Made by a program: the position numbers and the translations under genes
Shown here: positions 2,348 to 46,479 of the stretch, piece by piece
Layout: the number at the start of each line of letters is the position of its first letter
Position numbering within the stretch: position 1 is the first letter of the stretch
Notes under the pieces: model-generated
Seen by the model: the letters and a program-made list of their open reading frames with translations, nothing else
Told to the model about the DNA's origin: nothing
The model's database searches: none
Assembly (NCBI RefSeq): GCF_017876295.1
Contig: NZ_JAGINT010000001.1
Location: 4,278,001-4,342,000, forward strand
Length of the DNA stretch: 64,000 nucleotides
From: Kribbella aluminosa
GTDB lineage: Bacteria > Actinomycetota > Actinomycetes > Propionibacteriales > Kribbellaceae
Direction of reading: 5' to 3'

Positions 2348-2426
2348 ACAACATCCCCGAACTCCGAAGGGAGCCAGCGGTCGGTGCGCCTCCCCCTGAG
2401 TGAGGGGCGCCTCCGCGACGACACCG

Positions 2427-2729
2427 ATGAACTTCACTCCCGCCGACGTCGAGAAGCTGCTGCTGTCCGTGGCCGGTATGGTCGCTCGCGACCGGCTGGC
2501 CCGGGGAGTACTGCTCAACCACCCCGAGGCCGTGGCCCTGCTCAGCACCTGGGTCATCGAACGGGCGCGCGAAGGCGCGCGGGTGGCCGATCTGATGGAG
2601 TCGGGCCGCGCGGTCCTCACCCGCGACCAGGTGATGCCGGGCGTCGCCGAGCTCCTCCACGACGTGCAGGTCGAGGCAACCTTCCCGGACGGGCGGAAGC
2701 TCGTGACTATCCACAACCCGATTATTTGA
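2427..2729 (+). CDS. ureA: Urease subunit gamma
   Basis: A 100-residue protein matching the stand-alone UreA length. It begins [23 protein letters not shown] and carries the family signatures [22 protein letters not shown] and [20 protein letters not shown], ending TIHNP. ATG 2427 was chosen over the upstream in-frame start at 2400 because it matches the conserved N-terminus; the Shine-Dalgarno is weak. UreA, UreB and UreC assemble into the cytoplasmic nickel enzyme that hydrolyses urea to ammonia and carbamate. It is the first gene of ureABCFGD, 11 bases before ureB. Confidence 0.97.
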
Positions 2730-2740
2730 AGGCAGATGCG

Positions 2741-3151
2741 ATGGCCGACGACGTTACACTTAGCAAGGAAGAGCAGGGGGCGGACGCGTCAGCCGCCCCG
2801 CCGGGGGCAGTTCGGGTGCGGCCCGGCACCATCCAGCTCAACGCCGACCGTTCGGACGACGAGCGTCTGCGGCTGGTGGTTGTGAACGCCGGCGACCGGC
2901 CGATCCAGATCGGGTCGCACCTGCACCTGCCGGATGCGAACTCGGCGCTGGAGTTCGATCGGGAGGCTGCCCAGGGCTTTCGGCTGGATATCCCGTCGGG
3001 CACGTCTCAGCGGTTCGAGCCGGGAGCCTCGCGGGAGGTCGCGCTCGTCGCGCTGCGCGGGAACCGGCGGGTGCCGGGGCTCCAGATGAAGCCGGAGACC
3101 CAGGCGCAGCTGGACCAGTCGCCCGGCACGGGTGAGGTGAGTCGTGGTTGA
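2741..3151 (+). CDS. ureB: Urease subunit beta
   Basis: A 136-residue UreB. Residues 1-25 are a poorly conserved acidic extension; the core starts at [13 protein letters not shown] and includes [44 protein letters not shown] and [15 protein letters not shown]. The usual SHYHFFEVN segment is replaced by SHLHLPDAN, which is uncommon but keeps the SHxH and N. ATG 2741 lies 11 bases after ureA, and the TGA overlaps the ureC start by 8 bases, indicating translational coupling. Confidence 0.95.
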
Positions 3152-4841
3152 GATCTCGCGGGCCGCGTACGCCGCGCTCTACGGGCCCACCGTCGGGGAT
3201 CAGGTGCGGCTCGGGGACACCGATCTGTGGGTCGAGGTGGAGCGGGACCTCACCGTGGGTGGTGAGGAGGTGGTGTTCGGGGGCGGGAAGTCGATCCGGG
3301 AGTCGATGGCGCAAGGTACGGCGACCAGGGCGGACGGGGCGCCGGACACCGTGATCACCAACGTGCTCGTTGTCGACTGGTGGGGCGTCGTGCGCGCCGA
3401 CGTCGGGATCCGGGACGGGCGGATCGTCGCGCTCGGGCGGGCCGGGAACCCGGACATCGCGGACGGCGTACACCCGGACCTGCGGATCGGTCCGTCCACC
3501 GACGTGATCGCCGGTGAGGGCCGGATCCTGACCGCGGGCGCGATCGACTCGCACGTTCACCTGCTCTCCCCCTCGCAGCTGCACGAGGCCCTCGCCACCG
3601 GGATCACCACGATCGTCGGCGGCGGCACCGGGCCGAGCGAAGGTTCGAAGGCGACCACGGTCACCCCGGGCGCCTGGCACCTCGAGAAGATGCATCGCGC
3701 GCTGGACGCCGTACCGCTGAACGTCCTGCTGCTCGGCAAGGGCAACACCGTCAGCGCCGAGGCGCTCGCCGAGCAGGCGCTCGCGGGTGCCGCCGGGTAC
3801 AAGGTGCACGAGGACTGGGGTTCGACGCCTGCCGCGATCGACTCCGCGCTGCGCGCCGCGGACGAGTGGGGTCTCCAGGTCGCCCTGCACGCGGACAGCC
3901 TGAACGAGGCCGGGTACGTCGAGTCGACGCTGAACGCGATCGCGGGCCGCGGCATCCACGCGTTCCACGTCGAGGGCGCGGGCGGCGGGCACGCGCCGGA
4001 CATCCTGTCGATCGCGTCGTACCCGCATGTCATCCCGGGCTCGACCAACCCGACGCTGCCGCACACCGTCAACACGGTCGCCGAGCACCTCGACATGCTG
4101 ATGGTCTGTCACCACCTCAGCCCGGACGTCCCGGAGGATCTCGCGTTCGCCGAGTCCCGGATCCGCGCGACCACGATCGCCGCCGAGGACGTGCTGCACG
4201 ACCTCGGCGCGCTCTCGGTCACGTCGTCGGACGCGCAGGCGATGGGCCGGATCGGCGAGGTGATCACCCGTACCTGGCAGGTCGCGCACGTGATGAAGCA
4301 CCGGCGCGGACCGCTCGGCGCGGTCGCGGACAACGAGCGGGTACGGCGGTACGTCGCGAAGTACACGATCAACCCGGCGATCGCGCACGGCATCGACCAC
4401 GTCGTCGGGTCCGTCGAGGAGGGCAAGCTCGCGGACCTGACGCTCTGGGACCCGCGGTACTTCGGTGTCCGCCCGAACCTGGTGATCAAGGGCGGCGCGA
4501 TCGTCTGGGCGGCGCTCGGCGATCCGAACGCGTCGATCCCGACGCCGCAGCCGGTGCTGATGCGGCCCGCGTTCGGGGACGCGATCGGGGCGGATCTCTC
4601 GTACACGTTCGTGTCGCCGGCCGCGCTGGACGACGGGCTCGCGGACCGGCTCGGGTTGCGGCGGCAGCTGCTCGGCGTACGGCCGACCCGCGAGGTCACG
4701 AAGGCGGACCTGAAGAACAACGACGCGTTGCCGGCGATCGACATCGACCCGGAGACGTTCGCGATCAAGGTCGACGGCGAGCTGATCGAACCCGCGCCCG
4801 CCGACGTGCTGCCGCTCGCCCAGCTGTACGCGATGTTCTGA
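3144..4841 (+). CDS. ureC: Urease subunit alpha (catalytic)
   Basis: A 565-residue UreC, of normal length, starting at GTG 3144 inside the end of ureB. All active-site residues can be read: the two His of DSHVH (137, 139), the Lys carbamylated to bridge two nickels in GYKVHEDWG (K220, H222), H249 in [12 protein letters not shown]275 in [13 protein letters not shown], the mobile-flap CHH (322-324), and D363 in SSDAQAMGR. The enzyme should therefore be active once loaded with nickel by UreFGD. No ureE follows, as in many actinobacteria. Confidence 0.98.
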
Positions 4842-4851
4842 TGAGGCTCTG

Positions 4852-6075
4852 ATGGGTACGCCGGAGTTGGTCGCGCTGATGCTCGCGGACGGACGGTTGC
4901 CGACCGGCGGTCATACGCAGTCCGCCGGCCTCGAACCCGCCGTCCGAGCAGGCCTAGGTGCCAACGGCAACCACCTGGAGGACGTCGCCGAGTACGCCCG
5001 CGACCGCCTCCACACCGTCACCCGAGTCGAGGCCGCCGTCGCCGTCGTCACCCGCCACCTCATCCTCTCCCCGTCGACCAACGACCCACCCTCACCGAGT
5101 CGTGCGAATTGGCTCCACCGCGATTCGCCGAGTCGTGGATCGTGGTCGGGAAAACCTGCAAATCACGACCTGGATCCACGACTCGTCGAACGGGCGGGCC
5201 GGTTGTCCGCGACGGACTGGCGGGCGGACGGCGGGGGTCAACTGGGTGGGGCGGGACCCGGCGAGCGAGACACCAGGCCCGGACCGGACAAGCCGCCCGC
5301 CGGGATGGGACCCGACAGGCCGACCGCTGGGGTGGGACCCGACAGGCCGACCGCTGGGGTGGGAGCCGACGAGACCCCCGCTCGGGTTGGACCCGGCGAG
5401 CCAGACACCGGGCCGGGACCGGACAAGCCGGCCGCTGAGCGGGGACCCGACAAGCTGCCCGCTGGGGTGGGACCTGGCCAATCGGTGATTGGGGTGGGAC
5501 CTGGCGAGCCGGTCGGTGGGGTGGGACCTGGCCGATCGGTGGTTGGGGTGGGACCTGGCGAGCCGACCGGTGGGGTGGGATCGGGCCAGTCGGTGGTTGG
5601 GGCTGGGTTGGGCGGGTGGGGGGTTGGGTTGGGGTGGGTCGAGGGGGTTTGGGCTGCTCGGACGCCTAGTCAGGTACTGCGGGGGGTGTCGCGGCGGCAG
5701 GGGCGGTTGTTGTTGCGGCTGGCGGGGCGGGTTTGGCCGGAGGTGTTGGAGTATCTGCCGGATGACGGGGAGGTGCCGCGGCCGATTGTGCTCGGGGTGG
5801 TTGCCGCGGTCAACGGATTGTCGGCGGAGCAGCTTGCCCGGACCGTCGCGTACGAGGACGCGCAGACTGTCGTGTCCGCCTCGCTCAAGCTGCTCCCGGT
5901 GGACCCCGCGGACGCGGCGGCCTGGCTCGCCGGACTTCACGACGACATCGAGCGGCTCGTCAAGGACGTCGCGCCGCTCACGGATCCGGACACGATTCCC
6001 GCCGACGGCGCGCCGTTGATCGACGTGTTCGCCCACCAGCATTCGACCGAAAGAATGAGGCTGTTCAATGCCTGA
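4852..6075 (+). CDS. ureF: Urease accessory protein UreF with large repeat insertion
   Basis: UreF works with UreG and UreD to deliver nickel to apo-urease. The N-terminal 76 residues ([21 protein letters not shown]) and C-terminal 142 residues ([24 protein letters not shown] to TERMRLFNA) are good UreF. Together they give about 218 residues, the family norm, but the ORF is 407 residues. The middle (residues about 77-265) is foreign: first a palindromic element also found at two other places in this window, then about 13 copies of a nine-residue Gly/Pro-rich unit (GVGPDRPTA-like) encoded by a 27-bp tandem repeat. The frame stays open throughout. Whether the protein still folds, with the insert as a disordered loop, or UreF is disabled cannot be told from sequence. 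Confidence 0.85.
5095..5185. repeat. Palindromic repeat family 1, copy A (inside ureF)
   Basis: This 91-base element starts CCGAGTCGTG, repeats CGAGTCGTGGAT internally at 5129-5140, and ends with the complement ATCCACGACTCG at 5174-5185. Copy B at 7415-7497 aligns along almost its whole length, sharing the ATTGGCTCCA and GGGAAAAC blocks. Copy C at 26866-26917 has the inner palindrome only. This is the one copy that lies in coding sequence. Confidence 0.85.
5275..5640 (+). repeat. 27-bp coding tandem repeat in ureF
   Basis: About 13 degenerate copies of a 27-bp unit read GGN-GTN-GGN-CCN and encode the nonapeptide pattern GVGP(D/G)xPxA/V. Two neighbouring copies near 5310-5365 are almost identical, so expansion looks recent. 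The strand is strongly G-rich. The array follows directly after repeat copy A. Confidence 0.85.
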
Positions 6076-6769
6076 CACCCGCTCCTTCCGCCTCGGCGTC
6101 GCCGGCCCGGTCGGCACCGGTAAGAGCTCGCTGATCGCGACCGTCTGCCGTGAACTGTCCGCCGAGCTCCGGCTCGGCGTGATCACCAACGACATCTACA
6201 CCGACGAGGACGCCCGCCTGCTCAAGGCCGCCGGCGTCCTCGACCCCGAACGGATCCGCGCCGTCGAGACCGGCGCCTGCCCGCACACCGCGATCCGCGA
6301 CGACGTCACCCCGAACCTGATCGCGGTCGAGGACCTCGAGCGTGACTTCGCCCCGCTCGACGTGGTCCTGGTCGAGTCCGGCGGCGACAATCTCACCGCG
6401 ACCTTCTCCCCCGCGCTCGTCGACGCGCAGATCTTCGTGCTCGACGTGGCCGGCGGCGGCGACGTGGCCCGCAAGGGCGGACCCGGGATCGCGCGTGCAG
6501 ACCTTCTGATTGTCAACAAAACCGACCTCGCGCCGTACGTCGAGGTCGACGTCGAGCAGATGGTGCGCGACGCCGAAGCTGCCCGCGGCGGCAAACCGGT
6601 GATCGCCCTGTCGCGGAAGGACCCCGCCTCGGTCGCCCGCCTGACCGAATGGGTCCGTTCGATGCGGTCCGCCGTACGCACCGGCGATCACACGCCCGTC
6701 GATCCCGGCCCGATGGCGCCGCACTCACACGCCGGTGAGAACGGCGAGGTCATTGTCCACACGCATTGA
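6068..6769 (+). CDS. ureG: Urease accessory GTPase UreG
   Basis: A 233-residue SIMIBI-class GTPase that powers nickel insertion into urease. The P-loop GPVGTGKS is at residues 13-20, followed by [13 protein letters not shown], the [13 protein letters not shown] motif with the Cys-Pro-His nickel site, [14 protein letters not shown], and the NKTDL base-recognition motif. The C-terminus is His-rich ([16 protein letters not shown]), which may hold nickel and partly compensate for the absence of ureE. ATG 6068 overlaps the ureF stop by 8 bases. Confidence 0.97.
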
Positions 6770-7409
6770 GGTCGTCGCCGACCCCGTCCGCGACCGGTGC
6801 CTACTGACCACCGGCCACTTGTCACCACGCCTGCTCCCGGGCCGCCCCGGCGTCGTACGCGTCGCTCTGGTCGCGGCCGGAGCGCTGCTGCTCGCGGGTG
6901 ACGAGGTTCGGATCGAGGTCGACGTCGCGGGCGCCGTCCGACTGGAGATCGTCGAGACCGCCGGAACCGTTGCCTACGGCATGCGTGGCGGCTCGGCCCG
7001 CTGGGACGTCGACATCAGGCTGACCGACGGCGCGAGCCTCCAGTGGTACGCCGAACCGTTCGTCGTCGCCGCCGACGCCGACGTCACCCGTACGACGACC
7101 ACCCGCCTCACCGCCGGGTGCACCGCGCAGCTGCGGGAGTCCATCGTGCTGGGGCGCCACAACGAGACCGGCGGCCGCCTGCACACCAGCACCCGCGCGT
7201 GGCTCGACGACCAGCCGCTGCTCGCCGAGGACCTCGAGTTCCGCCACAGCTGGGCGATCCTGGGCACCGCCCGCTGCCTCGACACCGTCACCACGCTCGG
7301 CTTCCGGCTGCCCGACGACCCGGAGACCCTCCAACTCGAAGGCCCCGGCTCGATCGCCCGCCAGCTGGTCCACGAACAACACCAAAGCAGCCTCCAAACG
7401 CGACCCTAA
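6735..7409 (+). CDS. ureD: Urease accessory protein UreD
   Basis: A 224-residue UreD (UreH), at the short end of the family. Recognisable segments are [60 protein letters not shown] and [19 protein letters not shown]. It binds the urease apoprotein and passes nickel from UreFG. GTG 6735 lies inside the end of ureG; a TTG at 6753 is an alternative start. The stop is only 5 bases before palindromic repeat copy B, which probably marks the transcript end. Confidence 0.93.
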
Positions 7410-36250: not shown

Positions 36251-36316
36251 GTTCGGCCCGGTCCTTCGTACTCATGTGTTGGGGGCTCAAGGCAATTGCA
36301 GCAGATCAGGAGAGAC

Positions 36317-38311
36317 GTGGCACCGACACGCCACCGGCCGTGGCTGATCCGGTACGTCGTTCTGCTCGGCGTGCTGGCGGTCGCCGTACCGCTCGTCACC
36401 ACCGGCGTGATGGGTCCGGACAGCTATCTGCCGATCGCCCGCGACGACCCCGGCCGGGCGACCGGACTGATCACGACATTCGTCCGGGCTGTGGCGGATC
36501 TCTCGTCGCTGGTCACGGTCGGTGCGCTGGCGTCGGCGCTGTTCGCGGGCAAGGTCCGGCCGGTCCAGGACAAGGCCTCGCGGCGGCAGCTCGAGGTGGC
36601 GGAGTGGTTCGAGCCGGTCGTCGTACGGCGGGCCGCGACCGCCTGGGTGATCAGCTCGGGACTGCTCATCGCCCTCGACTCGGCGGATTCGAACGGGTAT
36701 TCGCTCGGCAAGCTCGCCGACCCTCAGGCGCTGTGGTTCGCGCTGTTCTCGGGTGACGCCGGGCGGTCGTGGATGGTGACGTTCGCCACCGCGGTCGTGG
36801 TGCTCGTCACCTGTGTGCTGAGCGTGCGCTGGATCGGGTACGCCGTCGCCCTCGGGGCCGCGCTGGCGGGTTCGCTGGCGCCGGTCGTCGTCGGGCAGAT
36901 CCTGGTCGGTCCGCGGCACGACTTCGGCAGCGACGCCGGTATCTTGCAGACGGTCGCCGGTCAGGTACTGCTCGGGATGATCGTCGTCCAGGCGCTGCGG
37001 GTCGTGACCGGGCGCCGGGTTCGTGCGCTGGACCGGGTGCACTGGCGCAGTACGGCCGCGGTGCTGTTCGGCGTACTCGTGGTGACCGAAGGCATCCTGC
37101 TCTGGTTCAAGCTCGCCGGCTCGTCGCCGTTCGCGAGTGCTACCGGGTGGTTGAGCCTGGGGCAGTTCGTGGCACTCGGTGTGGTCGGGGCCGGACTCGC
37201 CGCGGTGCACCGGGGCCGGATCACGGGTGCCGCCGTACTGCTGGCCAGTGGTACGGCGGGCTTCGTCGCGGCCGGTCTCGCGATGACGCGGATCCCGCCG
37301 CCGCAGTTCTTCGTGCCGACGTCGATCAGTCAGATCTTCTTCGGGTTCGACGTCAAGGTCCCGCCGGGGCTCGGCGCGCTGGCCGGGCAGTGGCGGCCGA
37401 ACCTGCTGTTCGTCACGGCTGCGGTCGTCGCCGTCGCCGGCTATCTCGTGGGCGTCCGGCGGCTCGCGCGGCGGGGCGAGCGCTGGCCGGTCGCGCGGAC
37501 GATCGCCTGGACGCTCGGCTGGGTGGTCATCGTCGTGGTGACCAGCTCCGGCCTCGGGAAGTACTCCGGCGCCGACTTCGCCGTACACATGGCCGTGCAC
37601 ATGGCGTTGAGCATGCTGGCGCCGATCCCGCTGGTGCTCGGCGGGCCGATCACGCTCGCGCTGCGGGCGCTACCGGCCGCGACCAAGGACGCCGATAAGG
37701 ACGCACAGCCGGGGCCGCACGAGTGGGTGCTCGCGTTCCTGCACTCGCGGCCGTTGCAGGCGTTGTACCACCCGTTGTTCGTGTTCACCGTGTACATCGG
37801 TTCGTACTACGCCTTGTACCTGACCAACGCCTTCGGGACCCTGATGAAGTTCCATTGGGCCCACCAACTGATGAACCTGCACTTCCTGGTCGTCGGCTGC
37901 CTGTACTTCGGTCTCGTGATCGGCGTCGACCGCACGCCGCACCAAATGCCGTCGCTGGCGAAGCTCGCCGTACTGCTCGGCGCGATGCCGTTCCACGCAT
38001 TCTTCGGCGTCATCCTGATGTCCGACGGCGCGATCATCGGCAAGTCCTTCTACGACCACCTCGAACTGCCCTGGACGCGCGACCTCGCCGCGACGCAGCA
38101 CGTCGCCGGCGGGATCGCCTGGGCGGGCAGCGAGATCCCGTTGCTGATCGTGGTCGTCGTACTGGCACTGCAGTGGGCGGTCCAGGACGGCCGGGCCGCG
38201 CGCCGGATCGACCGGCACCTGGACAGCGGCCTCGACCACTCGTACGACGCCTACAACGCGATGCTCCAGCGGCTCGCCCGGCGTACCGAATCCACCCAGG
38301 AGCGCCGGTGA
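36317..38311 (+). CDS. CopD-CtaG fusion membrane protein
   Basis: A 664-residue protein with about 15 TM segments. Residues 1-350 carry the CopD copper-transport pattern (TTFVRAVADLSSLVTVGALASALF, LFSGDAGRSWMVTFATAVVV, DRVHWRSTAAVLFGVLVVTEG). Residues about 390-640 are the CtaG/caa3 assembly domain (FAVHMAVHMALSMLAPIPLVLGGPITLALRALP, LFVFTVYIGSYYALYLTNAFG, FHWAHQLMNLHFLVVGCLYF), rich in membrane His. The fusion is common in actinobacteria and moves copper across the membrane or into cytochrome oxidase. GTG 36317 follows CAGGAGAG; the stop overlaps copA by 4 bases. Confidence 0.9.
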   Translation: MAPTRHRPWLIRYVVLLGVLAVAVPLVTTGVMGPDSYLPIARDDPGRATGLITTFVRAVADLSSLVTVGALASALFAGKVRPVQDKASRRQLEVAEWFEPVVVRRAATAWVISSGLLIALDSADSNGYSLGKLADPQALWFALFSGDAGRSWMVTFATAVVVLVTCVLSVRWIGYAVALGAALAGSLAPVVVGQILVGPRHDFGSDAGILQTVAGQVLLGMIVVQALRVVTGRRVRALDRVHWRSTAAVLFGVLVVTEGILLWFKLAGSSPFASATGWLSLGQFVALGVVGAGLAAVHRGRITGAAVLLASGTAGFVAAGLAMTRIPPPQFFVPTSISQIFFGFDVKVPPGLGALAGQWRPNLLFVTAAVVAVAGYLVGVRRLARRGERWPVARTIAWTLGWVVIVVVTSSGLGKYSGADFAVHMAVHMALSMLAPIPLVLGGPITLALRALPAATKDADKDAQPGPHEWVLAFLHSRPLQALYHPLFVFTVYIGSYYALYLTNAFGTLMKFHWAHQLMNLHFLVVGCLYFGLVIGVDRTPHQMPSLAKLAVLLGAMPFHAFFGVILMSDGAIIGKSFYDHLELPWTRDLAATQHVAGGIAWAGSEIPLLIVVVVLALQWAVQDGRAARRIDRHLDSGLDHSYDAYNAMLQRLARRTESTQERR

Positions 38312-40626
38312 CGCTGACCCAGCAGGAACCGCGGACCGCGACCGTCGAACTGCTCGTCGGCGGGATGACGTGCGCAGCGTGCGCCAACCGGGTCGAGCGG
38401 GCGCTCAACAAGCTCGACGGCGTGACGGCCACGGTCAACTACGCGACCGAGCGGGCGATCGTCACCGGGTCCGGAGACGATCTCACTGACCGCGCGACGA
38501 CCGCCGTCGACCGCGCCGGCTACCAGGCGACACTTCGGGATCCGGAGTCCGGCGACGAGCTCGCGGAGCAGTTGACGGCGCGCCGGATCAGCTCGCTGCG
38601 GCGGCGGCTCGTGCTCGCGACGCTGCTGGCGATCCCGTTGATGGACGCGACGATCGTGCTGGCCGCTCTGCCGTCGCTGCGTTTTCCTGGGTGGGATCTC
38701 GCGTGCCTCCTGGTGGCGCTGCCGATCGTGACGTGGGCGGCGTACCCGTTCCATCGCGCGACCGTGCGGAACTTGCGGCACCGGGCGGTGAGTATGGACA
38801 CGCTGGTGTCGCTCGGGATCACGGTCTCGTTCGGGTGGGCGGGGGTGTCCGTCCTGTGGCCCGGAGCGTCGAGTGGGTCGGGATGGCTTTCGCTCGACAC
38901 CGGGAGCCTTTACCTCGACGTCGCCGCAGGGGTGACGGTGTTCCAGCTCGCGGGGCGGTACTTCGAGACGCGGTCCCGGCGGCGTGCCGCTGACGTGTTC
39001 GGGGCGATCGGACGGCTGGCTACGCCGGTCGCCCGGGTACTGCGGGACGGCGCCGAGGTCGACGTACCGACCGGTGAGGTGGTGAAGGGCGACACGGTGG
39101 TGGTCCGGGCCGGCGAGATCATCCCGGTGGACGGGACGGTCGTCGACGGAGTGGCTGCGGTCGATACCAGCGTGGTCACCGGGGAGCCGGTGCCGCGGGC
39201 CGTCGGCGTCGGAGGACAGGTTGTTGGTGGAACCATCAGTACGGACGGGCGGTTGGTGCTGACGGCGACCGCGGTCGGGGTGCATACGCAGCTCGCGCAG
39301 ATGGCGGCGATCGCGGAGCAGGCCCAGGAGCGGAAGGCGCGCATCCAGCACACGGTCGACCGGATCATCGTGTGGTTCGTCCCGTCGGTGATCGTGCTCG
39401 CCGTCGCGGTCGCGGTCGGCTGGATGCTGTCCGGTGCGTCGGTCGCGCAGGCGGTCGGCACCGGGATCGCCGTACTCGTCATCGCCTGCCCGTGCGCGCT
39501 CGGTCTCGCCACTCCGACGGCTCTGATGGTCGGTATCGGGCGCGGCGCGACACTCGGGATCCTCATCAAGGGCCAGGACGCCCTGGAAACCAGCGGGGTG
39601 ATCGACACCATCGTTCTCGACAAGACCGGCACCCTCACCACCGGCGACCTCACCATCACGAACGTCGAACTCACGGGCGACCTCACCCGCGAAGAGGTCC
39701 TCGGCTACGCCGCTTCGGTAGAACAAGGCTCCGAACATCCCATCGCCCGAGCCGTAGAACACCTGGCGATCGCCGAAGGCGTCGTCGCCCAGCCCACCAC
39801 CAACTACACCACCCATCCCGGCCAAGGCGCCACCGCGACCGTCGGGGGCAAACAAGTAGCCGTAGGCAACCACACGCTCCTGCGGACGATCGGCGCCGGA
39901 ACCCCAGCCGGCGGCGGACTGCGTGGTGGACTGCTCCCAGACGCCGACGGCGCACCGGGTGGTGGACTGCAGCCACACGCCGACGGCGCACCGGGTGGTG
40001 GTGCCGGCCGCGATGAGCCTGGTACGGGTTCGGTTGTTTGGGTGGTTGTGGACGGGCGGATTGTTGGGCAGTTGGAGGTTGCTGATCGGCTGCGGAGTAT
40101 TGCGGGGGCCGCGGTGCGGGAGTTGCACCGGGCCGGGCTTCGGACGGTTTTGCTGACCGGGGATTCCGAGGCGGCTGCGCGTGAGGTTGCTGAGGAGCTG
40201 GGAATTGACGACGTGCGGGCCGGGGTGCTGCCGGCGGACAAGGCGGGGGTGATTGCGGAGCTGCAGGCCGATGGGCATCGGGTTGCGATGGTTGGGGACG
40301 GGATCAACGACGCGACCGCGTTGGCGACCGCCGATCTCGGGCTGGCTGTCGTCTCGGGGACGGACATCGCGCTGAAGTCCGCGGACATCGTGCTGGTTCG
40401 GGAGGACCTCGGGGTGATCCCGGACGCGATCGGGCTCGCGCGGCGGACCCGGCGTACCATCCACCGCAATTTGGTCTGGGCCTTCGCCTACAACCTGGCC
40501 GCGGTCCCGATCGCCGCCGCCGGACTGCTCAACCCGCTTGTTGCCTCCGCAGCTATGTCGCTGTCCTCGTTGTTCGTCACCTACAACAGCCTGCGCCTGC
40601 GGAACTTCGGCGATCCAGACGCGTGA
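38308..40626 (+). CDS. copA: Copper-exporting P1B-type ATPase
   Basis: A 772-residue ATPase. One N-terminal heavy-metal domain (GGMTCAACANRVE, C22 and C25), eight TM segments with the CPC metal site (C394-P-C396, IACPCALGLATP), the actuator TGEPVP, the phosphorylation motif DKTGTLT (D438), EHPIARA and VGDGINDATAL. These define a Cu(I) exporter. The nucleotide-binding domain carries an unusual low-complexity insert after HTLLRTIGAG: two 36-bp units encoding GGLLPDADGAPG-like repeats. GTG 38308 is coupled to the upstream gene; the stop overlaps the next start. Confidence 0.95.
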   Translation: MTLTQQEPRTATVELLVGGMTCAACANRVERALNKLDGVTATVNYATERAIVTGSGDDLTDRATTAVDRAGYQATLRDPESGDELAEQLTARRISSLRRRLVLATLLAIPLMDATIVLAALPSLRFPGWDLACLLVALPIVTWAAYPFHRATVRNLRHRAVSMDTLVSLGITVSFGWAGVSVLWPGASSGSGWLSLDTGSLYLDVAAGVTVFQLAGRYFETRSRRRAADVFGAIGRLATPVARVLRDGAEVDVPTGEVVKGDTVVVRAGEIIPVDGTVVDGVAAVDTSVVTGEPVPRAVGVGGQVVGGTISTDGRLVLTATAVGVHTQLAQMAAIAEQAQERKARIQHTVDRIIVWFVPSVIVLAVAVAVGWMLSGASVAQAVGTGIAVLVIACPCALGLATPTALMVGIGRGATLGILIKGQDALETSGVIDTIVLDKTGTLTTGDLTITNVELTGDLTREEVLGYAASVEQGSEHPIARAVEHLAIAEGVVAQPTTNYTTHPGQGATATVGGKQVAVGNHTLLRTIGAGTPAGGGLRGGLLPDADGAPGGGLQPHADGAPGGGAGRDEPGTGSVVWVVVDGRIVGQLEVADRLRSIAGAAVRELHRAGLRTVLLTGDSEAAAREVAEELGIDDVRAGVLPADKAGVIAELQADGHRVAMVGDGINDATALATADLGLAVVSGTDIALKSADIVLVREDLGVIPDAIGLARRTRRTIHRNLVWAFAYNLAAVPIAAAGLLNPLVASAAMSLSSLFVTYNSLRLRNFGDPDA
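39913..39991 (+). repeat. 36-bp tandem repeat in copA
   Basis: Two adjacent copies of a 36-bp unit starting GTGGTGGACTG and ending CGACGGCGCACCGG, plus a partial third, add about 35 Gly/Ala/Asp/Pro residues to the ATP-binding domain. The following bases switch to T-rich third positions. It resembles the Gly/Pro array in ureF in style, not in sequence. Confidence 0.7.
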
Positions 40627-40736
40627 TGCCGTCGGACACGCGGCTCCGGCCGCGCCGTCGCCCGATTCCGGGAACAATTGCTGGTGCCGGTGTGGCGCGG
40701 CCTCGGAGTTGTACTCGTGCGAGCTGGAGGTACGGC

Positions 40737-42257
40737 GTGGGTCAACCGGACGGCGGGTACGACCGCCTCGCGGCAGCACAGGTACTCGCCCGAGTCGCCG
40801 GCCAACTGCCGGCGGTCGAGCACCTCCCGCCACCCTTCGAACTCGCCGTCGAACTCACCCCCCTCACCCCCTCCCCCGGCAGCCACCTCACCTCCGCACA
40901 ACTGCGCTACCTCCACTCCGCCCTACACCCCTGCGAACCCCACCAGATCACCACCGCCACCCACCGCCTCCACTGGCAAGACAGCACCACCACCCCAAAC
41001 CTCGCCCACTGCACCCCGGGCGCCCCGGGCGCCGCGGGTGGCGCGGGTGGCGCGGGTGGCGCGGGTGGCGCGGGCGCCGCGGATGGCGCGGATGGCGCGG
41101 ATGGCGCGGATGGCGCGGATGGTGTGGGTAGCCCGCACAGCGCGGGTGGTGCGCGCAGTGCGGGTGGTGTGGTTGTGGCGGTTGTGGCTCGGGAGACCGT
41201 GCTGTTGTTGCGGCGTGCGCTGGGTGCCGACGGCGGGGTGCGTGGTCGCGCTGCTGGGATGTCGGCGCGTGAGCGGGCTGTGCTGGATGCGACGACGACC
41301 GATCGGGAGGCGGTCGAGATTCTGGGTGTCGGGTTCGAGACCACTGCGCGGGCGCTTGTGCAGCACGCGTGGCTTGTCGGGCAGACGCCGTACCGGACGG
41401 CCGGCGAGCTTGCGCGTGGGCTGCATGAGTCGGGCATCTTCGGAGTCGTCGCGAACACCTGGTACTGGGGGTTGCAGTCCGAGACGTACCGGCGCGGCAT
41501 GATCCCGGTCACCCTCGAGCCCCGGCCGGACGGCGGCGTCGCGTACACGACCGCGTCGCGAACGCTGCTACGCACGATGAAAGACGCCCGGATCGCCCGA
41601 TCCACCCGCAACAACTCCAGCCAGTCCCGGCCCAACCGCGACGGCTCCGGCCCGACCAGCCAGTCCCGACCCGACTACGAAAGCCCCGGCCCGGCCGGGC
41701 AGTCCCTGCCCGACGGCGAGGGCTCCAGCTCGGCCAGGCCGTCCCTGCCCGACGGCGAGGGCTCCAGCTTGGTCAGGCAGTCCCGGCCCGACTACGAAAG
41801 CCCCGGCCTGGCCGGGCGGTCCTGGACCGGTTATGACGACGCCGGGCTCGTGCGGCAGTACGGGCCGCTTGCGTATGCCGAGGTGCCGCGGTGTCTTGCG
41901 AACATGCCGGTCACCGTCGCCGGCGAGCGCCACGCCCTGCTCCCCGCGGCCGTCGAACTCTTCATCGACACGTTCGTCCGGATGCTCGACGTCGTACGTA
42001 TCACCGGAAGTCCCGATCCTCAGGAGGAATCCAGCATGTCCGAGGTGTTCGAAGTACCCGACATGACCTGTTCGCACTGCACGAACACCATCACCGGCGT
42101 GCTCGAGTCGCACGGCGCTACCGTGGACGAGATCAGCCTCGACTCGAAGCAGGTCGTGGCCGCGTTCCCGTCCGCCGAGGCGCGCGAGCAGGCGTTCGAG
42201 GCGATCCGCGACCAGGGCTACACAGTGGTCGACACGGCGGTGCCGCCGGCCGGCTGA
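40737..42257 (+). CDS. Hypothetical protein with low-complexity blocks, open in frame through copZ
   Basis: Not recognised. From GTG 40737 (GGAGG six bases upstream) the protein begins MGQPDGGYDRLAAAQVLARV; GTG 40623 overlapping the copA stop is the alternative start. A helical core (ARERAVLDATTTDREAVEIL, FETTARALVQHAWLVGQTPY, GIFGVVANTWYWGLQSETYRRG) is interrupted by two low-complexity blocks: Gly-Ala then Ala-Asp-Gly triplets at about 41030-41125, and a repeated SRPDYESPG/SLPDGEGSS region at about 41640-41830. The end (ERHALLPAAVELFIDTFVRMLDVVR) has no stop of its own; the frame continues into copZ. Its place between copA and copZ suggests a copper-related role. Confidence 0.5.
   Translation: MGQPDGGYDRLAAAQVLARVAGQLPAVEHLPPPFELAVELTPLTPSPGSHLTSAQLRYLHSALHPCEPHQITTATHRLHWQDSTTTPNLAHCTPGAPGAAGGAGGAGGAGGAGAADGADGADGADGADGVGSPHSAGGARSAGGVVVAVVARETVLLLRRALGADGGVRGRAAGMSARERAVLDATTTDREAVEILGVGFETTARALVQHAWLVGQTPYRTAGELARGLHESGIFGVVANTWYWGLQSETYRRGMIPVTLEPRPDGGVAYTTASRTLLRTMKDARIARSTRNNSSQSRPNRDGSGPTSQSRPDYESPGPAGQSLPDGEGSSSARPSLPDGEGSSLVRQSRPDYESPGLAGRSWTGYDDAGLVRQYGPLAYAEVPRCLANMPVTVAGERHALLPAAVELFIDTFVRMLDVVRITGSPDPQEESSMSEVFEVPDMTCSHCTNTITGVLESHGATVDEISLDSKQVVAAFPSAEAREQAFEAIRDQGYTVVDTAVPPAG
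42036..42257 (+). CDS. copZ: CopZ-like copper chaperone
   Basis: A 73-residue heavy-metal-associated protein: SEVFEVPDMTCSHCTNTITG (C12, C15), then LDSKQVVAAFPSAEAREQAFEAIRDQGYTV, the ferredoxin-like fold of Atx1/CopZ. It would carry Cu(I) to CopA. AGGAGG six to seven bases before ATG 42036 strongly supports an independent start, although the upstream ORF reads into it in the same frame with no stop. Confidence 0.88.
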   Translation: MSEVFEVPDMTCSHCTNTITGVLESHGATVDEISLDSKQVVAAFPSAEAREQAFEAIRDQGYTVVDTAVPPAG

Positions 42258-43227: not shown

Positions 43228-43524
43228 GCAGCCGCCATCTACTTGCTTCAGGCAACCACAGTCGGCCGGAAAAGCCTTGTAGGTCAAGCGATTGACTCTC
43301 GACCTCGCCTGGAGATATTCGAGACGATTCAGTCCGATCCGCCGTTTCAAGCTGTTGGGCCGGGGGTAGATCGGGTATGCATGGTGCACTGGACAGCCTC
43401 GGGGATCGAACGTGGGAGGGCAACCTTGTCAAGGCAGTACCCGTCGGCTCGAGGTGCCGACAACCGAGACCACCTGTCCGTTTCGTCCGAGGAGCTGCCG
43501 TTCCGAGCTGGATAGCCGAGCACC

Positions 43525-44829
43525 ATGGACGCAGATGCCCTACAACGCAGCTGGGACCGGGTGACGACGTACGGAGACCAGGTAGCCCTGTACTTCTACT
43601 CGCACATCTTCGTGTCTCATCCCGAAGTACGCTCGATGTTCCCGCTGTCGATGGCGAACCAGCGGGACAAGTTCGTGAGCGCGCTCGGCCGGATCGTCAG
43701 CCACGCCGACCAGCTCGACAAGGACGCGGCCTTCCTGCAACACCTCGGCCGTGATCACCGCAAGTACGCCGTCGTCGCCGCGCACTACAACGCGGTCGGC
43801 GCCTCGCTGTGCGCAACCCTGAAGCACTTCCTCGGCTCCGAGTGGGACGAGGACCTCGCCGCGCACTGGACCGCGGCGTACCAGGTGGTAGCGCGGATCA
43901 TGGTCGAGGCGGCCGAGATGTCCTCGGAGTCCAGCCCTGACTGGTGGGACGCCGACGTGCTCTCCGCCGAGCGGCGCACGATGGACCTCACGCTGCTCAG
44001 GGTCCGGCCGCGGCGCGCGTTCCAGTTCCTTCCCGGCCAGTCGGTGTCGATGGAGATACCGCAACGCCCCCGGCAGTGGCGCTACTTCAGCCCGGCGAAC
44101 GCTCCGCGCGCCGACGGCTCGATCGATCTGCACGTTCAGCAGATCGACGGCGGTCAGGTGAGCCCGGCGGTGGTGCGGTCGCTGAAGGCCGGCGACACCG
44201 TCAGGCTGGGAGCGCCGATCGGTGAACGGCTGACCCGGCGGGTCGGCGACACGACCGACCTGCTGATGGTCGCCGGCGGAACCGGCCTGGCTCCGCTGCT
44301 CGCCGTACTCGAGCAGATCGATCACGAGTGGCAACGGTCAGGTACCGGGCCGCTGGTCAACCTGCTCCACGGAGTCCGGATGCCGTGGCATCTCTACGAC
44401 CGCCCGCGGCTGCGGGAGCTGGCCCAGAACCGGTCGTGGTTCGACTACATCGAGGTCGTGTCCGACGACTCGTCCTACCCGGGCACCCGCGGAAAGGTCG
44501 GCAGGGTCGCGGCCCGCCAGTTGCTGCACGGGCGTACGGCGATGGTGTGCGGCGGTCCGCAGATGGTCGCACACACGCTCGAGCAACTGGCCACCGCCGG
44601 TCTGCGGCCCGATCAGATCAAGTACGAGCACTTCTACTACGCGGCCGCCGGCGAGCACACCGCCGGGCCGGCATCACCAGGTCAGGAGACAACAAGTGAC
44701 GAACACCAACCACCGGCGCGTCTCTCGGCACTATCAGACGCCGGATTCGATCCGGGGCGAGACGTTCCGGCGCCGGATGCGGGGCCTGGACGCGGGCACG
44801 GTCTATGGGTACCTCGATCGGCTGGCTGA
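43525..44829 (+). CDS. Flavohaemoglobin (NO dioxygenase type)
   Basis: A 434-residue protein with a globin (1-135), FAD-binding (145-235) and NAD-binding (240-385) domain. Globin: Y25 (FYSHIF, B10), Q46 (MANQRDKF, E7) and proximal H78 (GRDHRKY) are those of Hmp. FAD motif RYFS (186-189) is a variant of RxYS. NAD motif AGGTGLAP (250-257) and MVCGGPQMV are clear. Such proteins turn NO plus O2 into nitrate using NADH. It precedes a DivIVA-like gene and NO synthase, so it may detoxify or meter their NO, or lend electrons to the synthase. The C-terminal 45 residues beyond the domain overlap the next gene by 134 bases. Confidence 0.9.
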   Translation: MDADALQRSWDRVTTYGDQVALYFYSHIFVSHPEVRSMFPLSMANQRDKFVSALGRIVSHADQLDKDAAFLQHLGRDHRKYAVVAAHYNAVGASLCATLKHFLGSEWDEDLAAHWTAAYQVVARIMVEAAEMSSESSPDWWDADVLSAERRTMDLTLLRVRPRRAFQFLPGQSVSMEIPQRPRQWRYFSPANAPRADGSIDLHVQQIDGGQVSPAVVRSLKAGDTVRLGAPIGERLTRRVGDTTDLLMVAGGTGLAPLLAVLEQIDHEWQRSGTGPLVNLLHGVRMPWHLYDRPRLRELAQNRSWFDYIEVVSDDSSYPGTRGKVGRVAARQLLHGRTAMVCGGPQMVAHTLEQLATAGLRPDQIKYEHFYYAAAGEHTAGPASPGQETTSDEHQPPARLSALSDAGFDPGRDVPAPDAGPGRGHGLWVPRSAG

Positions 44830-45244
44830 CCAGGTGGAGACGACCGGCAAGGAGCTCAAGGAGAGCCGGGTCAAGCTCGAACGTCTCCAGGCCGAGCTCC
44901 AGCGCGGGCGCGCGGAACTGCAGCGCGTGCAGGCGGAGCTGGACCAGTACGAGCAGGCCGGCGACCGGGTGAACGAACAGGTCGTGCAGATGTTCAGCCA
45001 GGCCCAGCTCGTGGTCGAGGAGATGGTCCAGGACGTCACCCGGGACACCCGCGAGCGGATCGGCCAGGCCCGCGCCCACGAGCGCAGGATCGTCGCCGAG
45101 GCGATGGACACGGCCGGGCAGCAGGTCCGTTCGTACGCGCAGTCGGCCCAGGCACAGATGCAGTCGATCGTGGACTCGTTCGCCACCGAGGTCGACCGGA
45201 TCGGCGACGGGCCACGGCCCGGCGAACGCCCGGGCACCATATGA
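44696..45244 (+). CDS. DivIVA-like coiled-coil protein
   Basis: A 182-residue protein starting at GTG 44696 with AGGAG at 44684-44688. The N-terminus (TPDSIRGETFRRRMRGLDAGTVYGYLDRL) follows the DivIVA domain pattern (the F-R-G-Y/L layout), and about residues 40-165 are a long coiled coil (ERLQAELQRGRAELQRVQAELDQYEQ). DivIVA proteins mark curved or polar membrane in actinobacteria. The unusual 134-base overlap with the flavohaemoglobin and the 4-base overlap with NO synthase make it the middle of one operon; it may position the NO enzymes (inference). Confidence 0.8.
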   Translation: MTNTNHRRVSRHYQTPDSIRGETFRRRMRGLDAGTVYGYLDRLADQVETTGKELKESRVKLERLQAELQRGRAELQRVQAELDQYEQAGDRVNEQVVQMFSQAQLVVEEMVQDVTRDTRERIGQARAHERRIVAEAMDTAGQQVRSYAQSAQAQMQSIVDSFATEVDRIGDGPRPGERPGTI

Positions 45245-46479
45245 GCAGGGCCCCGCGCATGGGGCGGCGGCCGTCCCCGGGCCCCGGGAGGACCCGGACA
45301 CGGTTCAGCCATCCGGTGGGCCGGCCCGATCCCGAGCGGAGCCTGAGTGACCTCGACACCGAGACGCTTCGGGCCGAGGCGACCGCGTTCCTAGGGCTCT
45401 TTCACGCCGAGAACCCGCAGGCCGGATCGATCGGGCCGCGGCTCGCCGCTGTGATGCGCGAGATCGACCTGACCGGGACGTACTGGCACACGCCGGAGGA
45501 GCTGGCGTTCGGCGCCCGCGTCGCCTGGCGCAACAACGAACGCTGCATCGGCCGACTGTACTGGCGCAGCCTGCAGGTGCGGGACCTCCGGACGGTCTCC
45601 GACGCCGGCAGCGTCGCCACCCACTGCTTCGACCACCTCCGCGCGGCGCACAACGGCGGGAAGATCCGGCCGATGATCAGCGTGTTCGCACCCGAGACGC
45701 CGTACCGGCCGGCGCCCAGGATCTGGAACGAGCAGCTCATCCGGTACGCCGGGTACGAGCAGCCCGACGGGACTGTCCTCGGGGACCCCCGCTACCGCTC
45801 CTTCACCAGCGAACTCGTCCGGCGCGGGTGGCAACCACCCGAGCGTCCCGGGGCGTTCGACGTACTCCCCCTCGTCGTGGAGACCGTCGAGGACGGACCG
45901 CAGCTGTTCCGGCTTCCCGAGGAGGCGGTGCACGAGGTCGCGCTCGAACACCCCGAGCTCGCCTGGTTCGCGGGGCTGGGCATCCGGTGGCACGCGGTCC
46001 CGGTGATCAGCAACAGCCGACTGGTGATCGGCGGCGTCTCCTACCCGGCGGCACCCTTCAACGGCTGGTACATGGGTACCGAGATCGGCGCCCGCAACCT
46101 GGGCGACGCCGACCGCTACGCGCTGGTCCCGGACATCGCCGCGCGGATGGGGCTGGACACCTCCGACGAGACGACCCTCTGGCGGGACCGGGCACTGGTC
46201 GAGCTCAACCGCGCTGTGCTGCACTCCTTCCAGGCGAAGGGCGTCACGATCACCGATCACCACACCGAGTCCCAGAGGTTCATGATCCACCTGGAACGCG
46301 AGGAACGCGCCGGCCGGCACTGCCCCGCCGACTGGACCTGGATCGTCCCGCCGATGTCCGGCTCCCAGACCCCCGTCTTCCACCGCTACTACAACACCGA
46401 ACCCCAGGTCCCCAACTTCTTCACCGACGCCGCTGCCACCCACCGAGCCCTCCAGGGAGGCCCTCCGGCGTTCCGCTGA
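45241..46479 (+). CDS. nos: Bacterial nitric-oxide synthase oxygenase
   Basis: A 412-residue haem-thiolate NOS oxygenase domain without a reductase, like other bacterial NOS but with about 35 extra N-terminal residues. Visible: haem ligand C102 in AWRNNERCIGRLYW, the W-x4-E arginine site W276/E281 in FNGWYMGTEIGARNL, and the pterin-side WIVPPMSGSQTPVFH. It oxidises L-arginine to citrulline and NO and needs an external electron donor; the flavohaemoglobin two genes upstream is a possible one. ATG 45241 overlaps the DivIVA-like stop by 4 bases. Confidence 0.95.
   Translation: MSRAPRMGRRPSPGPGRTRTRFSHPVGRPDPERSLSDLDTETLRAEATAFLGLFHAENPQAGSIGPRLAAVMREIDLTGTYWHTPEELAFGARVAWRNNERCIGRLYWRSLQVRDLRTVSDAGSVATHCFDHLRAAHNGGKIRPMISVFAPETPYRPAPRIWNEQLIRYAGYEQPDGTVLGDPRYRSFTSELVRRGWQPPERPGAFDVLPLVVETVEDGPQLFRLPEEAVHEVALEHPELAWFAGLGIRWHAVPVISNSRLVIGGVSYPAAPFNGWYMGTEIGARNLGDADRYALVPDIAARMGLDTSDETTLWRDRALVELNRAVLHSFQAKGVTITDHHTESQRFMIHLEREERAGRHCPADWTWIVPPMSGSQTPVFHRYYNTEPQVPNFFTDAAATHRALQGGPPAFR

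Follow-up and report, generated by a model that had tools for sequence, protein, structure and literature searches.

How a nitric oxide synthase (NOS) that consists of an oxygenase domain only comes by its electrons, and what a flavohaemoglobin (FHb) and a DivIVA-like coiled-coil protein contribute beside it, are the questions raised by a locus in Kribbella aluminosa. The locus lies in the window, as the whole 64,000-nucleotide stretch of DNA analysed here is called. A sequence-only reading had described the three genes as an overlapping operon and had proposed that the FHb either consumes the NO produced or feeds electrons to the synthase, that the coiled-coil protein localises the pair, and that the group serves NO signalling or nitration. 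Its gene calls were borne out: all three genes lie on the forward strand (Table 1), each family was confirmed by Pfam, and both overlaps have exactly the lengths that had been claimed. The flanking genes, an RNHCP-domain protein upstream and an alpha-amylase downstream (Pfam), are both antiparallel to the trio, and the operon therefore comprises the FHb, DivIVA-like, and NOS genes alone. Rfam gave no match within the operon or upstream of it.

Table 1. Coordinates of the operon and of its junctions and upstream repeat within the window.
Feature	Position	Strand	Description and basis
Flavohaemoglobin (FHb)	43525..44829	+	434 codons; Pfam Globin 55 bits, FAD_binding_6, NAD_binding_1
DivIVA-like coiled-coil protein	44696..45244	+	182 aa; Pfam DivIVA 40.9 bits
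NO synthase (NOS), oxygenase domain only	45241..46479	+	412 aa; PF02898 496 bits
FHb/DivIVA overlap, 134 bases	44696..44829	+	Junction alignment; derived via a 1-nt deletion upstream of the overlap
GTGA, DivIVA-like start and what is left of the ancestral FHb stop, outside the present FHb frame	44696..44699	+	Sequence, junction alignment
ATGA, NOS start/DivIVA-like stop, 4-base overlap	45241..45244	+	Sequence
Inverted repeat GTCGGC-N7-GCCGAC upstream of the FHb start	43443..43461	+	Upstream alignment

The synthase, which is the sole NOS of the genome, matches PF02898 with an E value of 6e-149 over residues 41-398 and aligns with the eNOS haem domain across 344 residues, that is, across the entire core. 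It carries the oxygenase domain without a reductase domain, as is characteristic of the bacterial oxygenase-only enzymes, and the three proteins are encoded by separate reading frames, which sets the locus apart from a SyNOS-type single chain. Its haem pocket bears the bacterial Ile where mammalian NOS (eNOS) has Val, a change discussed as favouring NO oxidation over NO release (PMC6104048). The NOS relatives that share 78-82% identity with it come from genomes named Kribbella.

The FHb is a flavohaemoglobin by domain content, with Globin, FAD_binding_6, and NAD_binding_1 all above the Pfam cut-off. Alignment to E. coli Hmp (1gvh) assigned its haem-pocket residues Y25, Q46, H78, and Y88 to TyrB10, GlnE7, HisF8, and TyrG5, and these four are invariant in all 19 FHbs aligned, while Glu H23 (position 131) is Glu in 14 of the 19; the complete type I haem-pocket set is thus present in the window protein. 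R186 is likewise invariant, and an R-x-(Y/F)-S flavin motif (RxYS-type) is found in most of the aligned members. The protein nevertheless appears to fit neither flavohaemoglobin class cleanly, since it stays far under the NCBIfam cut-off for NO-inducible flavohemoproteins (110.6 bits vs 432) and shows the D(x)8GxxP sequence described in PMC8883573 as the FAD motif of type II flavohaemoglobins. This motif occurs in 17 of the 19 FHbs, yet Tyr G5 is retained, whereas the mycobacterial type II proteins are also characterised by an altered proximal site in the globin; the comparison with type II was made by description. The earlier proposal that the FHb can consume NO agrees with the retained NO-dioxygenase residues, from which such a capacity is predicted, and a reductase-less haem partner could receive electrons from its FAD/NAD(P)H module.

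The second protein has the two parts that define the DivIVA family, an N-terminal domain and a long coiled coil, and its gene starts with a GTG preceded by AGGAG. Its Pfam score (Table 1) compares with a cut-off of 28, and the profile of its own family matches the N-terminal domains of Wag31 (6lfa, E 3e-14) and of B. subtilis DivIVA (2wuk). An AF2 model (mean pLDDT 85) predicts a short N-terminal helix followed by one continuous helix of 138 residues (33-170); a Foldseek search with this model gave no match, which is unsurprising for a structure that is one long helix. When 395 genomes were searched with the family profile, the top 21 hits were FHb-linked genes at 155-255 bits, high scores that arise by construction since most of these 21 trained the profile; the next hit reached 108 bits, and no unlinked gene close to the subfamily by profile score was present in the 395 genomes.

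The recurrence of the grouping was examined in 392 genomes of the order, of which 31 carry a NOS (28 Kribbella and three of a second genus, family f3). FHb and DivIVA-like genes stand directly upstream of NOS in all 31; with the same order recurring in every NOS-bearing genome, the grouping is not a matter of chance but real and strictly conserved. The trio is also found in two named Nocardioides, N. gansuensis (L027) and N. speluncae (L029), whose proteins are about 80% identical to those of Kribbella and interleaved with them in the FHb tree. The proposal that the trio would recur in actinobacterial genomes thus holds past close relatives, but the complete set occurs in Kribbella and certain Nocardioides only. 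In the 71 NOS loci compared from actinobacteria outside the order, no DivIVA-like gene adjoins NOS, and a globin-like neighbour was detected by BLAST in only three, namely a different FHb (L046) and two short globin-domain matches (L078, L098). The former, in a Pseudonocardiales MAG (L046:5703-8101), has 31% identity and lies directly upstream of NOS without DivIVA, possibly as an independent FHb-NOS pairing, while the latter two, from Pseudosporangium (L078:8139-8474) and Symbioplanes (L098:8355-8654), are FHb-type globin stretches just behind NOS on the opposite strand, in convergent orientation. Two records call for separate comment. One is Kribbella sp. VKM Ac-2527 (L023:5004-6301; L119 is from the same genome), where decay or a sequencing error has interrupted the FHb reading frame near codon 225, with DivIVA and NOS intact. 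The record Streptomyces sp. SID13031 (L024) is probably misnamed, since its trio shows Kribbella-like identity and matches a Kribbella genome (L006).

The FHb and DivIVA-like genes also occur together away from NOS. Such loci were found in nine Kribbella and in eight genomes of another family (f4), and 20 more without an adjoining NOS were recovered across the class, in addition to four named genomes in which NOS lies elsewhere. In a class-wide sample, FHbs scoring at least 312 bits adjoin a DivIVA-like gene, whereas those lower-scoring ones that were read do not; extending the FHb search to the phylum (E 1e-85) added one FHb outside the class, whose DivIVA side is cut by a contig end and beside which trHbN was undetected. 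Judged from this distribution, the FHb-DivIVA pair is far older than the trio. Directly upstream of FHb, 39 of the 41 NOS-less loci encode a truncated haemoglobin of group I (trHbN). Its gene, some 129 codons long, usually ends 0-16 bp before FHb and is absent at every trio locus, the window included. These proteins carry the Bac_globin domain (PF01152, 61-73 bits); Tyr B10 and the proximal His, as expected of group I, are present in all 15 sequences compared, and the nearest structures are Chlamydomonas THB1 (4xdi) and M. tuberculosis HbN (1idr); a PF01152 profile search recovers the same positions in relatives.

The FHb tree gives this alternation of partners a direction. In it, the 14 FHbs from trio loci group as a single clade (support 0.64) nested inside trHbN-linked FHbs, which points to trHbN as the ancestral partner. 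Family f4 supplies their nearest relatives, which are trHbN-linked (joint/parent support 1.0), the two together sit within a larger trHbN-linked group, and the native trHbN-type FHbs of Kribbella occupy a separate branch. NOS thus appears to have replaced trHbN once, in a partner swap, and this topology suggests a single origin of the NOS version, either outside Kribbella or at its edge, with later displacement of the native operon. Among 38 Kribbella genomes, 28 have the NOS version, nine the trHbN version, one neither, and none both. An rpoB tree of 23 Kribbella, a limited guide on its own, requires at least three switches between versions, and the distribution is therefore not one old split. 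The component families are known; what looks new is the trHbN-FHb-DivIVA operon together with its NOS form, of which no account was found in the open-access literature, to which the search was confined.

Nearly all homologous loci, down to an FHb identity of about 45%, join the FHb and DivIVA-like genes by a 4-base ATGA/GTGA junction, and the persistence of this junction across very divergent loci suggests coupled translation. In the window and its near relatives, the junction alignment revealed one base missing about 25 nt before the junction. Owing to this 1-nt deletion, FHb misses its former stop and its frame runs on for 134 bases within the DivIVA gene, out of phase with the latter, so that a tail of about 50 residues is gained. 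On the alignment, the long overlap is the derived state and the 4-base junction the ancestral one, and an ancient dual-coding feature was rejected as an explanation, given the origin by a single deletion. The conserved part of the window FHb stops near codon 380, and in an AF2 model of all 434 residues, of too low a quality for interpretation (shallow alignment, mean pLDDT 55), the tail 370-434 lies below 50. The DivIVA/NOS junctions of relatives are tight, yet not identical.

Upstream of FHb, the inverted repeat listed in Table 1 is kept in most trio loci, as shown by an upstream alignment, and is a possible operator or leader hairpin. A block, TTTCGAGACGATTGAGTCC, is conserved at the same side of FHb in most trio loci as well, and TTGTCAAC(G) recurs upstream of the trHbN-type Kribbella operons; the conserved elements of the two operon types may represent a shared promoter or operator. 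Elsewhere in the window, ORF appearance suggests a urease operon (2400-7406), comprising structural as well as accessory genes, close to the left end. The region 36296-42257, upstream of the operon, encodes a CtaG-type oxidase assembly protein, a heavy-metal P-type ATPase, and a protein that, judged by eye, has a copper-chaperone-like C-terminus.

A mechanism can be built on what was observed, namely the gene linkage, the close or overlapping junctions, the strict FHb-DivIVA pairing, the trHbN/NOS alternation with its direction, and the conserved active sites. The reading that we prefer, with a confidence just short of evenly balanced, is that of an old actinobacterial operon with a swapped partner, in which a scaffolded FHb removes NO and reduces the haem partner. 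The ancestral operon had trHbN first, followed by the FHb and DivIVA-like core; in one lineage trHbN appears to have been lost and an oxygenase-only NOS added downstream, and this form seems later to have ousted the native operon from many Kribbella and certain Nocardioides. Briefly, the DivIVA-like protein would oligomerise via its long coiled coil, bind the membrane, and gather FHb there, a step whose chances we put as even; some DivIVA-domain proteins are neither polar nor membrane-bound. NOS would then make NO from arginine beside FHb, and the FHb globin would turn NO and O2 into nitrate, so that little NO escapes, a conversion that we regard as probable. Finally, the NAD(P)H/FAD module of FHb would reduce not only its own haem but, in trans, also the haem partner (trHbN or NOS), which has no reductase, a step that we advance tentatively and rate as somewhat more doubtful than sound.

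In the NOS form, this scheme would convert arginine to citrulline and nitrate with little free NO, as in SyNOS and the S. aureus NOS/Hmp couple, while in the trHbN form FHb would supply the missing reductase, as in known pairings of flavin reductases with truncated globins (PMC3820574). The natural replacement of trHbN by NOS lends the electron-donor idea more plausibility than the trio could by itself. Known NOS reductases pass electrons via FMN or Fe-S centres, whereas FHb has FAD and no FMN or Fe-S relay, which is the main objection to direct transfer from FHb to NOS. Other points against the preferred reading are that bacterial NOS can function without a dedicated partner, that just three of the 71 NOS loci outside the order have a globin-like neighbour, and that FHb falls far short of the NCBIfam cut-off. 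The most specific version, in which the DivIVA scaffold keeps FHb membrane-bound, as a reductase on which exchangeable haem partners, be it trHbN or NOS, can dock, is rather unlikely as we judge it.

A simpler reading makes FHb a local NO sink or safety valve only, with NOS and trHbN reduced by general flavodoxin/ferredoxin reductases and the DivIVA-like protein joining source and sink. The full conservation of the NO-dioxygenase residues speaks for it, as do the production of nitrate by S. aureus NOS with a flavohaemoprotein (PMC6104048) and the function of bacterial NOS without a dedicated partner, for which PMC9500659 cites Gusarov 2008. What this reading leaves unexplained is the presence of trHbN as the partner before NOS, since FHb already performs the NO-dioxygenase job, and we hold it to be a serious but minority possibility. 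The movement of the trio between genera, visible in the Nocardioides and Kribbella proteins described above, together with the commonness of short stress-gene operons, could also be explained by a horizontally moving cassette, co-regulated under nitrosative or oxidative stress, whose proteins make no contact and whose DivIVA-like member has an unrelated envelope task. Two findings argue against this cassette, which we consider improbable: in 395 genomes nothing near the DivIVA subfamily was found away from FHb, and the 4-base junction is kept over such divergent loci, with its hint of coupled translation.

The two roles that the sequence-only reading had suggested for the group fared less well. 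Actinobacterial NOS elsewhere do provide NO for the nitration of natural products, as in the thaxtomin and rufomycin clusters (PMC9500659), but the 10 neighbours scanned here include no P450 or biosynthetic family, the neighbours vary among trio loci with no further gene common to all of them, and an NO-consuming FHb within the operon works against NO donation. A nitration cluster was rejected on the absence of partner genes among those 10 neighbours, and the role as such is judged extremely improbable; a signalling role found no support either.

Should FHb reduce its exchangeable partners as in the preferred reading, the same core would drive NOS in Kribbella and, in most of the Actinomycetes that possess this core, a trHbN NO dioxygenase. 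This would join two questions, the reductant of oxygenase-only bacterial NOS and that of trHbN-type NO dioxygenases, as the natural exchange beside the same FHb and DivIVA-like gene offers one testable candidate reductase for both, with Kribbella strains of either type as ready controls. The arrangement further suggests that Actinomycetes place NO chemistry with the fold of a cell-pole/membrane marker, a use of which no description was found in open-access papers.

Each component has known counterparts from which it departs. Like type I and type II flavohaemoglobins, the FHb combines a globin with a FAD/NAD(P)H module, and its active-site residues are those of type I, but it carries the type II motif D(x)8GxxP and belongs to a group with 44-63% identity to the window protein, far from E. 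coli Hmp. The DivIVA-like protein shares with DivIVA, Wag31, and GpsB an N-terminal DivIVA domain and, after it, a long coiled coil, whereas the FHb-linked proteins form a separate subfamily that has C-terminal coiled-coil motifs of its own and occurs next to this FHb only; its profile gives other DivIVA-type proteins no more than 108 bits. NOS and Hmp of S. aureus are linked by function only and are not known to share an operon or to have a DivIVA-type partner. They resemble the trio in that an oxygenase-only NOS makes NO that a flavohaemoglobin turns into nitrate, as cited in PMC6104048. The ancestral trHbN-FHb pair recalls the combination of a truncated haemoglobin with an FNR-type flavin reductase in the Legionella GlbN (glbN)/ferredoxin-reductase operon, in the algal trHb/nitrate-reductase pairs, and in a trHb-nitrate reductase fusion (PMC3820574), systems that have no FHb globin, DivIVA-like protein, or NOS version. 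A close parallel in composition is SyNOS of Synechococcus PCC 7335, a globin-NOS-reductase fusion that yields nitrate and in which a NOS, an NO-to-nitrate globin, and a flavin reductase work as a single unit (PMC6104048). SyNOS is one polypeptide with a NOS-type reductase, whereas the trio consists of separate, overlapping genes, in which the globin sits in an FHb with a FAD-type reductase and a DivIVA-like protein has been added.
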